NCBI RefSeq assembly: GCF_001708445.1
Contig: NZ_CP015637.1
Location: 496,001-560,000 of the forward strand
Direction: 5' to 3'
Length of the DNA: 64,000 nucleotides
DNA from: Pseudomonas fluorescens
GTDB taxonomy: Bacteria > Pseudomonadota > Gammaproteobacteria > Pseudomonadales > Pseudomonadaceae
The stretch's first letter is position 1, and each line of letters opens with the position of its first letter. Under the pieces are notes generated by a model, which had not been told where the DNA came from, did no database searches, and worked only from the letters and a program-made list of their open reading frames with translations. Below are positions 5,141 to 64,000 of this stretch, piece after piece. Made by a program: the position numbers and the translations under genes.

Positions 5141-5229
5141 TGTGGGAGGGGGCTTGCCCCCGATTGTGGTATGTCAGTTACAGATGTACCGACTGACGCT
5201 CCGCTATCGGGGGCAAGCCCCCTCCCACA
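5141..5229. repeat. REPIN (paired inverted REPs), 89 bp
   Basis: Two REP arms in inverted orientation, TGTGGGAGGGGGCTTGCCCC at the left and its complement ending CCTCCCACA at the right, enclose a ~40-base spacer. It lies between rlmJ and msrA, which converge here. Its 89-bp length equals that of the REPIN at 47355-47443 and that of the REPIN at 62714 once an insertion is removed. It probably folds into a long hairpin in both transcripts. Confidence 0.92.
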
Positions 5230-47354: not shown

Positions 47355-47443
47355 TGTGGAAGGGGGCTTGCCCCCGATGACGGAGTGTCAGTCAACATGA
47401 GTTCACCTGGTACACCGCTATCGGGGGCAAGCCCCCTCCCACA
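47355..47443. repeat. REPIN, 89 bp
   Basis: Paired REP arms, TGTGGAAGGGGGCTTGCCCC at the left and the complement ending CCCTCCCACA at the right, lie between the convergent waaA and opmH genes. The length is the same as the other intact REPIN at 5141. The left arm has one base change (GGAAG for GGGAG). Confidence 0.92.
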
Positions 47444-51307: not shown

Positions 51308-51396
51308 ACAAGCTCCCTCCCACATATTGACTGAGCCATACACAGTTTTTGTGTTCACAGCCGATCCAATGTGGGAGGGGGCTTGCCCCCGATTGC
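51308..51396. repeat. REP pair between thiC and cytX, outward orientation
   Basis: CAAGCTCCCTCCCACAT (51308-51324) and ATGTGGGAGGGGGCTTG (51369-51385) form an inverted pair in which the CCCACA ends face inward, the reverse of the other REPINs in the window. The left copy lacks part of the G/C core. As RNA it could form a stem-loop in the gap between the thiC and cytX genes. Confidence 0.7.
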
Positions 51397-62630: not shown

Positions 62631-62647
62631 TCTGAATCGCAGACAAA

Positions 62648-62680
62648 CAAAAAGGCCCGCTGACTCAGCGGGCCTTTTTG
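62648..62680 (+). terminator. Rho-independent terminator
   Basis: AAAAGGCCCGCTGA-CTCAGCGGGCCTTTTTG is a perfect, long GC-rich stem flanked by A and T runs, 17 bases beyond the lipoprotein gene stop. It could also act on minus-strand transcripts. Confidence 0.93.
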
Positions 62681-62783
62681 TTTGTGGTGAGATAAGTCAC
62701 GGCGCAGATCAAGTGTGGGAGGGGGCTTGCTCCCGATAACGGTGGTTCAGTTAATGATGTGCTGACTGATACTCCGCAATCGG

Positions 62784-62793
62784 GGGCAAGCCC
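62784..62793. repeat. Target site duplication, left copy
   Basis: GGGCAAGCCC, the hairpin tip of the REP arm, flanks the MITE on the left and is identical to the copy at 63006-63015. Confidence 0.9.
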
Positions 62794-63005
62794 TAATGCC
62801 GTTCAGTTAAGCGTACATCGCCTTTTGTAGGAGCGAGGGGGACGCCTAGTTCTTGCTCGCGAAAAACGTCAACGATAACGCGTGTCTCCTGAATGAACGC
62901 GGCGCCTGTGAGTTTTTCGCGAGCAAGCTCGCTCCTACAAAAGCGCCTGTGAGTTTTTCGCGAGCAAGCTCGCTCCTACAAAAAAGCCTTAACTGAACGG
63001 CATTA
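62794..63005. mobile_element. 212-bp MITE with perfect 18-bp terminal inverted repeats
   Basis: TAATGCCGTTCAGTTAAG (62794-62811) and its exact complement (62988-63005) bound a 212-bp non-coding element, flanked by 10-bp direct repeats. It encodes no transposase, so it would have moved through one supplied by a related insertion sequence. A 10-bp duplication suggests the IS4 group, but this is a guess. The interior is made of copies of a second REP class. Confidence 0.9.
62825..62983. repeat. Second-family REP copies within the MITE
   Basis: A divergent REP arm starting TGTAGGAGCGAG near 62826 faces two tandem, identical 41-bp copies (62902-62942 and 62943-62983) that read CGCGAGCAAGCTCGCTCCTACA in part. 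This REP class is distinct from the TGTGGGAGGGGG class the MITE inserted into. Confidence 0.88.
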
Positions 63006-63015
63006 GGGCAAGCCC
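63006..63015. repeat. Target site duplication, right copy
   Basis: GGGCAAGCCC directly follows the right inverted repeat of the MITE and matches the left copy at all ten bases. Confidence 0.9.
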
Positions 63016-63042
63016 CCTCTCACATGAGTCCGGCGGTGTTCT

Positions 63043-64000
63043 TCAGGGCTTTGTACGGGTCTCATGCATCCGCGCCAACTGCCGTTCCAGCATCGATGGA
63101 TACGGCTCCATCAAGCGCTCCACACAACTGGCGCCTTCTGGGCTGGCAATGGGGCGAATACGCGCGCGTTGGCGAATCAGCGTGTCTTCGCTGATCTTGC
63201 GCTCCACCAGCAGGAGATTGCGGCTGTGTTGGGACAGGGCCAGCGCATCCTGGGCGATCTCGGTCAGCAGCAGGTCGATCTGGCTCATGCCAAACAGGTC
63301 GTCACCCACCGTCAGGCCCAGTTGCAGTTGCAAGGTGATGCCGCTGTCGGCCACTTCGATCTGCAATTCATGGCCCAGGGCGCGCAGCAGCTCGCCGCAG
63401 CAGATGGCGTTGGTCAGGTAGTCTTCGCCGCTGTCTTCGCTGTGGAACAGCATCAACGTGCTGCCGTCGTTCAGGGTGTGCAGCTCGCTCTGGTAGAGCG
63501 AGGCGGCCTGGTCGAGGCAATCGCGGTAGCGTTCCAGTAATTCGGTCAGGCGGGCGCGGGGCAGGCGGCGCAGTTGGTCCTGGGCGCCCAATTGCACGGC
63601 CAGTACGGCGCTGTGCTGGGGCTCGGCGTTCTTCGCTGGCACGGGCTTGGGCGCAACGGCGGTGCTGGCCGAGGTGTCGCGCAGGTCGGCGAATGGGTCT
63701 TCGTCGTCCAGCTCGTCTTCTTCGGCCCGGATCACATGGCGTGGCGCTGGTTTCAGGCCGGCTACCGGAGGGCGCTCGTCGAAGCCCGGGTCGCGCAGGT
63801 CGTGTACTTCGAACTCGGGTTCGTCGTCGAACTCGGGCTCGGGTTCAATCTCGCGTACCACCGGTTCCGGAGCGAAGCTGGCATGAAGTTGGCGCGCAAG
63901 GTCGCCGATTTCGTCCTGGCGATCGGTGGCCGGGGTATGTTCGTCGATATCCCGCAGCCAGATGCGCAGTTGCATCAGTGGCGTCGAGATATGCCGCCCC
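63043..64000 (-). CDS. HAMP-domain protein, C-terminal part (5' end outside window)
   Basis: The frame runs off the right edge, so the start is missing. The first visible residues, ISTPLMQLRIWLRDIDEH, then QDEIGDLARQLHASF, are a HAMP linker, implying a membrane sensor-like N-terminus. A strongly acidic linker follows (EPEPEFDDEPEFEVHD), then about 180 residues with TELLERYRDCLDQAASLYQSELHTLNDGSTLMLFH that resemble a nucleotide-cyclase-like or regulatory fold without visible catalytic residues. No kinase or methyl-accepting region is seen in the 319 residues present. By position it matches a conserved gene (PA4961) near serB. Confidence 0.75.
   Translation of the reverse strand, partial: GRHISTPLMQLRIWLRDIDEHTPATDRQDEIGDLARQLHASFAPEPVVREIEPEPEFDDEPEFEVHDLRDPGFDERPPVAGLKPAPRHVIRAEEDELDDEDPFADLRDTSASTAVAPKPVPAKNAEPQHSAVLAVQLGAQDQLRRLPRARLTELLERYRDCLDQAASLYQSELHTLNDGSTLMLFHSEDSGEDYLTNAICCGELLRALGHELQIEVADSGITLQLQLGLTVGDDLFGMSQIDLLLTEIAQDALALSQHSRNLLLVERKISEDTLIRQRARIRPIASPEGASCVERLMEPYPSMLERQLARMHETRTKP

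Follow-up and report, generated by a model that had tools for sequence, protein, structure and literature searches.

A MITE with IS4-type ends at the hairpin tip of a Pseudomonas REPIN very probably marks insertion at a palindrome axis and carries a REPIN of another class

What kind of element splits the REPIN near the end of the present stretch of Pseudomonas fluorescens DNA, and how did it come to lie exactly there? The window analysed comprises 64,000 nucleotides, namely bases 496001-560000 of a 6.64-Mb genome available as one contig (G000). Read directly from the window, the element at 62794-63005 is 212 bp long and bounded by perfect 18-bp terminal inverted repeats (TIRs) of IS4 type, TAATGCCGTTCAGTTAAG at 62794-62811 on the forward strand and its perfect reverse complement at 62988-63005 on the reverse strand. 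Identical 10-bp copies of GGGCAAGCCC, the target duplication, lie at 62784-62793, in the tip of a REP hairpin, and at 63006-63015. The left part of the target (62714-62793, forward strand) consists of a 5' REP, a spacer and the left half of a 3' REP, and ends with the left copy of the duplication. Joined with the leftover right end at 63016-63024 on the same strand, it is completed to 89 bp, the same length as the REPINs at 5141-5229 and 47355-47443. The target is a REPIN in the proper sense, two inverted REPs of one class at fixed spacing within 89 bp; this class, termed R1 here, is the PF1 class of Nunvar 2013 (GTGGGAGGGGGCTTGCCCCCGAT, as given in the accessible part of that paper), the first copy having one change. 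The first-pass annotation had described the perfect TIRs, the 212-bp element and its identical 10-bp flanks, a description that holds base for base, and had claimed that removal of the element with one duplication copy restores an 89-bp REPIN like those at 5141 and 47355, which was also borne out. At window position 51370, a lone R1 REP without a partner, a REP singlet, can be observed.

The structure is very probably explained by a MITE with IS4-type ends that was mobilised in trans, inserted at the axis of a hairpin palindrome and carries a REPIN of a further class, R3. According to its sequence and to a whole-genome count of ends, the inserted unit (62794-63005, forward strand, 212 bp in the assembly) has the properties of a MITE: it is short, possesses TIRs, has no coding capacity for a transposase, displays a target duplication and an empty site, and has many copies in the genome (170 ends). 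The earlier suggestion of a non-autonomous MITE is therefore supported, since 212 bp leave no room for a transposase. Matches to the region of the element were obtained in 59 genomes of the genus including the source genome, and 29 orthologous loci of the 58 other genomes were scanned. The 18-bp TIR was present at the orthologous site in none of these 29 loci, and one of them, in genome G004, contains an empty 89-bp REPIN. There, the sequences on either side of the insert adjoin directly, overlapping by 10 bp, and an intact R1 REPIN lies between the same neighbours, with a tip, GGGCAATCCC, that is one change from GGGCAAGCCC. The first-pass annotation had opposed to its own reading a 311-bp unit with no empty 89-bp counterpart; in G004 this counterpart is present. 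At several orthologous loci another REPIN is found instead, for example R3 in G052, G017 and G048. In G121, a 1422-bp IS4-family IS is located in the apparently orthologous intergenic region (locus L321, G121:C1:541200-543100), where it interrupts the equivalent of the terminator found at window 62649-62679; in alignments, window 62639-62670 corresponds to the sequence on its left, and 62658-62732 together with 63033-63114 to the sequence on its right. This terminator site is approximately 100 bp from the REPIN occupied in the window. With the IS in the terminator counterpart and the MITE in the REPIN, the short intergenic region thus seems to have received insertions in two species, each at a different hairpin tip.

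The ends in the window belong to a large family. At up to three mismatches, the 18-bp end occurs 170 times in the 6.64-Mb genome, compared with 6 matches for the reversed control pattern, and GGGCAAGCCC followed by TAATGCC gives 148 matches at up to two mismatches, compared with 0 for the control; the form of the end can be written TAATGCC(G/A)NTCAGTTAAG. Outer flanks were readable at 139 ends in the 0.98 Mb of this genome that was read, part of the loci having been obtained by a query containing REP sequence, which is a mild bias, and the others by the end alone. The flank is exactly GGGC(AA/TT)GCCC at 97 of the 139 ends and within one mismatch of it at 122, against 16 of 20,000 random 10-mers from the same sequence. 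Beside the core, an R1 half accompanies 22 of these 122 ends and an R2 half 73, the other 27 having neither; R2 appears to resemble PF22 by our reading of the accessible part of the published class table. The other copies that the first-pass annotation proposed to examine for this site lie mostly at GGGC(AA/TT)GCCC. The same annotation had named copies lacking a target duplication as evidence to the contrary, and here the outcome is divided: among the 35 facing pairs encountered in those parts of the genome that were fetched, 19 have the duplication (at most one mismatch), 7 have mirror-image flanks, 8 have neither and 1 lies at an edge. A tandem array of MITE-like units with a 168-bp period was also observed at G000:C1:2153622-2154356.

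The interior at 62826-62980, from reading of the sequence and comparison of REP classes, is an R3 REPIN (PF18-like, TGTAGGAGCGAGCTTGCTCGCGAA). In the window copy, the left R3 REP is interrupted by 14 bp (62838-62851), and the right one is doubled, at 62916-62939 and 62957-62980 on the reverse strand. The 14-bp insert, GGGGACGCCTAGTT, is a recurrent variant with 35 20-mer matches in the fetched genome parts. In a copy of 157 bp, the R3 REPIN occupies positions 26-126, and 33 of 43 R3 pairs in this genome have a spacing of 76 bp. In a sample of 704 kb from this genome, made up of the window and 40 stretches whose first 4 kb were left off, a MITE end lies within 150 bp of 24 of 44 R3 REPs, the corresponding counts being 2 of 63 for R1 and 7 of 27 for R2. 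A search of genus genomes in which only three candidates were scored per genome demonstrates that interior-only matches are common across the genus and that the full 157-bp design is also present in other species, for example in G236, G238, G099, G188, G143 and G067. Two Y1_Tnp (RAYT-type) matches exist in the genome, one flanked by R3 REPs (L243) and the other by R1 REPs; cargo REPIN and target REPIN therefore each have their own presumed enzyme. With inverted pairs of one REP class and a cognate RAYT in the genome, the interior qualifies as a REPIN, so that copying of the MITE also copies a REPIN.

The first alternative to be weighed is that the structure in the window, in whole or in part, is an assembly artefact resulting from contigs that end in a repeat and were abutted, which we regard as unlikely. 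No SSU (16S) rRNA match was reported for the source genome, an imperfect test in which 26 of 152 candidates were scored and which succeeds in 9 of 14 control genomes, so that the missing match alone is no proof. Moreover, 48 near-perfect ends are unpaired; many of these leave the reference element part-way, some only through the known 14-bp variant, and three, which break off at 42, 68 and 69 bp, join a common sequence at an identical base; we take this sequence to be an rRNA leader. Fragments of the MITE abutted to other repeats at exact positions can be seen in G000, for example at C1:678049, 2019806 and 6070912. Contigs were probably abutted at repeats in the source assembly, and in view of this concatenated appearance, conclusions from synteny across repeats call for caution. 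In the window itself, an exact 41-bp tandem duplication (62902-62942 and 62943-62983), like the R3 interior absent from the first-pass description, resembles two overlapping contig ends, possibly left unmerged; given the missing 16S match and the look of abutted contigs, this duplication, and hence the length of 212 bp, may be artefactual. When it is subtracted, the window copy measures 171 bp and is close to a 172-bp sister copy (similarity ratio 0.97), and 36 of 39 REPIN-carrying copies in other genomes measure 154-173 bp. An artefact of the whole is contradicted by the synteny of both flanks with relatives, by REPIN halves that fit each other and by the occurrence in other genomes of complete elements that are built alike and have duplications. 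Any artefact is therefore most likely limited to the length of the interior, and the insertion itself is safe by virtue of flank synteny and the matching REPIN halves.

It is very improbable that the 311 bp of REPIN halves and insert represent one compound repeat spreading as a whole, in the manner of the 320-bp R200 of SBW25. A 320-bp family is indeed on record, its build not being given in the accessible part of that record, and the target core adjoins the end in most copies read. However, the empty orthologous REPIN of G004 exists, the same ends are found in R1, in R2 and in other contexts as well as in terminator-like hairpins of other genomes, and of 35 facing pairs in this genome, 19 are flanked by direct and 7 by inverted repeats. 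Equally hard to credit is that a RAYT (REP-associated tyrosine transposase) moved the interior R3 REPIN into the R1 REPIN with the outer inverted repeats being incidental, for although one of the two Y1_Tnp matches has R3 REPs around it and the other R1 REPs, and R3 REPINs that lack IS4 ends do occur, as confirmed in G052, G017 and G048, the junction lies at the IS4-type TIR and not at the R3 REP, MITEs with other interiors share the same ends and targets, and target duplications would not be anticipated from a tyrosine transposase.

The relationship of the MITE to IS4 is reflected in its ends and in the duplications. Against TAATGCCAGTCAGTTAAG and TAATGCCGATCAGTTAAG, the ends of E. coli IS4, the TIR shows 1 mismatch and 2 mismatches, and that element has a 12-bp duplication; a TIR of subgroup IS4 together with duplications of about one helical turn characterises the ends as IS4-type. 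The E. coli IS4 transposase, used as a query, has matches in 40 of 249 genus genomes, the source genome not being among them. Two facing ends (up to three mismatches) were present at 15 of 30 fetched IS4-transposase loci from other Pseudomonas, and four scanned proteins consist of Nterm_IS4 and DDE_Tnp_1 and are named IS4 family (NF033592). The transposase gene with the same ends anticipated by the earlier reading was thus encountered in other Pseudomonas, as IS4-family genes between such ends at these 15 loci, but not in the source assembly, where repeats seem to be missing and no mobilising IS4-family transposase was found. Since contigs were probably abutted at repeats there, this absence carries little weight. 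The sole PF01609 match, a 507-aa ORF, was rejected as a partner because its 3.7-kb stretch contains no 18-bp end at up to four mismatches. At up to two mismatches, the end occurs in 138 of 249 genomes, single matches being near the level of the reversed control (0-2 per genome). The genomes richest in ends are G000 (136), G136 (127), G225 (107) and G018 (86), none of which has a match to the E. coli IS4 transposase query; high copy numbers therefore need no transposase visible in the assembly. Compared by eye, MITE and IS sequences display no clear similarity beyond the 18-bp TIR, and derivation of the MITE from a known IS by internal deletion was accordingly not supported.

The choice of target was analysed in other genomes with 123 distinct elements having facing ends, a non-random sample of full-length matches and facing end pairs from which repeats and elements within 30 bp of a stretch end were dropped. 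Duplications of 10-14 bp, exact or with one mismatch, flank 80 of the 123, with lengths of 10 bp (31 elements), 11 bp (32), 12 bp (10), 13 bp (6) and 14 bp (1). These 80 comprise 15 IS, 31 MITEs with an R3 interior and 34 other MITEs; two of them (L154 and L155) represent a single insertion present in two species. The remaining 43 without a duplication are 7 of 22 IS, 8 of 39 REPIN-carrying MITEs and 28 of 62 other MITEs, among which are 14 of the 20 elements of G018, a genome in which the MITE interior is a different one. In 56 of the 80 cases, the midpoint of the duplication falls no more than 1 bp from that of the best palindrome, compared with 35 of 800 random control sites in the same loci. 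By kind, this holds for 14 of 15 IS, 25 of 31 REPIN-carrying MITEs and 17 of 34 other MITEs, half of the last group thus lying off the palindrome axis. A count of symmetric pairs agrees, with a mean of 7.2 of 11 against 4.6. Regarding the kind of hairpin, all 15 IS sit in one with a T- or A-run, resembling a rho-independent terminator (control 8/300). REPIN-carrying MITEs occupy such T-/A-run hairpins in 15 of 31 cases (control 34/620), a REP core in 14 and other places in 2, and the other MITEs do so in 15 of 34 cases (control 31/680), with 10 in a REP core and 9 elsewhere. The occupied hairpins therefore include REPs and terminator-like stems, and the preference is not for REPs alone: it is for the hairpin axis, REPs being the usual hairpin in this genome. 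Targeting of REPs only was consequently abandoned. A plain fold test, by which the apex of a predicted hairpin lies inside the duplication, separates poorly (65/80 versus 888/1600 controls), and the insertion site of IS4 in E. coli K-12 is not visibly palindromic. The length of the duplication correlates with that of the loop overall (Spearman 0.42, p 0.002) but not without the 10-bp class (0.13, p 0.45); the idea that loop length sets duplication length was dropped, and no ruler is claimed. Of the first-pass proposal of a transposase with a 10-bp footprint that chooses the REP loop, the choice of a hairpin tip stands, while the restriction to REPs gives way to terminator-like stems as well and the strict 10 bp to a range of 10-14 bp.

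A further set bears only on duplications, since its junction pattern preselects the REP core. It stems from 80 listed loci of at least 120 stretches in named genomes, the listed titles being all Pseudomonas, and was obtained with a looser junction pattern in place of the 44-base end-plus-REP pattern, which had no exact match in the named-genome contigs, a set that may leave out the source genome or its near kin. Its 41 pairs include 26 with duplications (at most one mismatch), 11 with mirror-image flanks and 4 with neither; another 41 junctions have no partner, 20 of these being near a stretch end. Mirror-image flanks are also found on the 6.05-Mb contig of strain W4I3 (L349, L385), which implies that they are probably not only an assembly matter. 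They could arise from correction of the quasi-palindrome after insertion or from recombination between copies.

During the process proposed, an IS4-family DDE transposase supplied in trans would bind both 18-bp ends, cut the element out and join it to the target in a staggered fashion, by which about one helical turn (10-14 bp) would be duplicated. Insertion would be directed to the two-fold axis of a palindrome able to form a hairpin; the usual site in this genome is the GGGC(AA/TT)GCCC core. As this core is common to two REP classes, R1 (PF1-like) and R2 (near PF22), it is chiefly REPs and REPINs that the element has colonised. Similar elements and IS4-family IS of other Pseudomonas also occupy the tips of terminator-like hairpins, and the cargo between the ends is a REPIN of a third class (R3, PF18-like). 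We infer that an IS4-family enzyme mobilised the window MITE by cut-and-paste chemistry, the symmetry being read either on the duplex or on an extruded hairpin. More tentatively, and with somewhat more doubt than confidence, a second route of REPIN movement without RAYT can be envisaged, in which an IS4-type MITE that has captured a PF18-class REPIN copies it into the hairpin tips of other REPINs and of terminators, the IS4-subgroup transposase choosing its targets by two-fold symmetry rather than sequence, perhaps at an axis extruded as a cruciform. If targeting by symmetry is true, REP-rich genomes represent reservoirs of safe landing sites. The hairpin axis would provide a simple and testable landing rule for Pseudomonas elements of the IS4 subgroup, which predicts that such MITEs build up between genes in REP-rich genomes. 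The finding also links MITEs, which DDE transposases move, with REPINs, whose movement is ascribed to RAYTs, two kinds of bacterial repeat that are usually studied separately. Furthermore, nested repeats of this kind break short-read assemblies.

Among known systems, IS231 of Bacillus belongs to the IS4 family, has the target GGG(N5)CCC with duplications of 10-12 bp, and has given rise to IS231-derived elements. It is like the window element in family and in its symmetric G/C target, and unlike it in host and ends. IS that target REPs, including an IS4-family one at the axis of palindromy, are already known: all copies of ISRm22 lie in S. meliloti REPs, which have a highly palindromic consensus, with insertion at the palindromy axis, according to the accessible part of Tobes and Pareja 2006 (PMC1525189). 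ISRm22 is, however, an autonomous IS with 6-bp duplications in another host, whereas the window element is a REPIN-carrying MITE whose ends are of the IS4 subgroup. GTAG-15 REP dimers of A. variabilis reportedly lie inside long palindromes (PMC3733652), an arrangement resembling a REPIN inside an inverted-repeat element, for which the accessible text gives no IS4-type ends or target duplications. No description of a MITE that transports one REPIN class into REPINs of other classes, nor of a single hairpin-axis rule covering both REPs and terminators, was met in a limited search of partly accessible literature, and no priority is claimed. The classes of the target REP (PF1) and of the cargo REP (PF18) are known, R0 of SBW25 also has 89 bp, and REP singlets have been attributed in part to DNA inserting into REPINs (Bertels and Rainey 2011, PMC3116915; Nunvar 2013, PMC3686654; Silby 2009, PMC2718517, each as far as accessible). 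The present case differs from these known REPIN classes in that one of them rides in a DDE-type MITE which inserts into others. A further comparison is with the IS4 subgroup (De Palmenaer 2008, PMC2266710): the 18-bp TIR of the window element nearly matches that of E. coli IS4, duplications are again of about one helical turn, and the transposase is a single-ORF DDE enzyme, the window element having no gene. The accessible part of that paper notes insertion specificity for subgroup IS4 and makes no mention of REPs or terminators as targets, the word "terminator" having 0 occurrences in it. The target specificity in its Figure 3 may be the hairpin-axis one described here.
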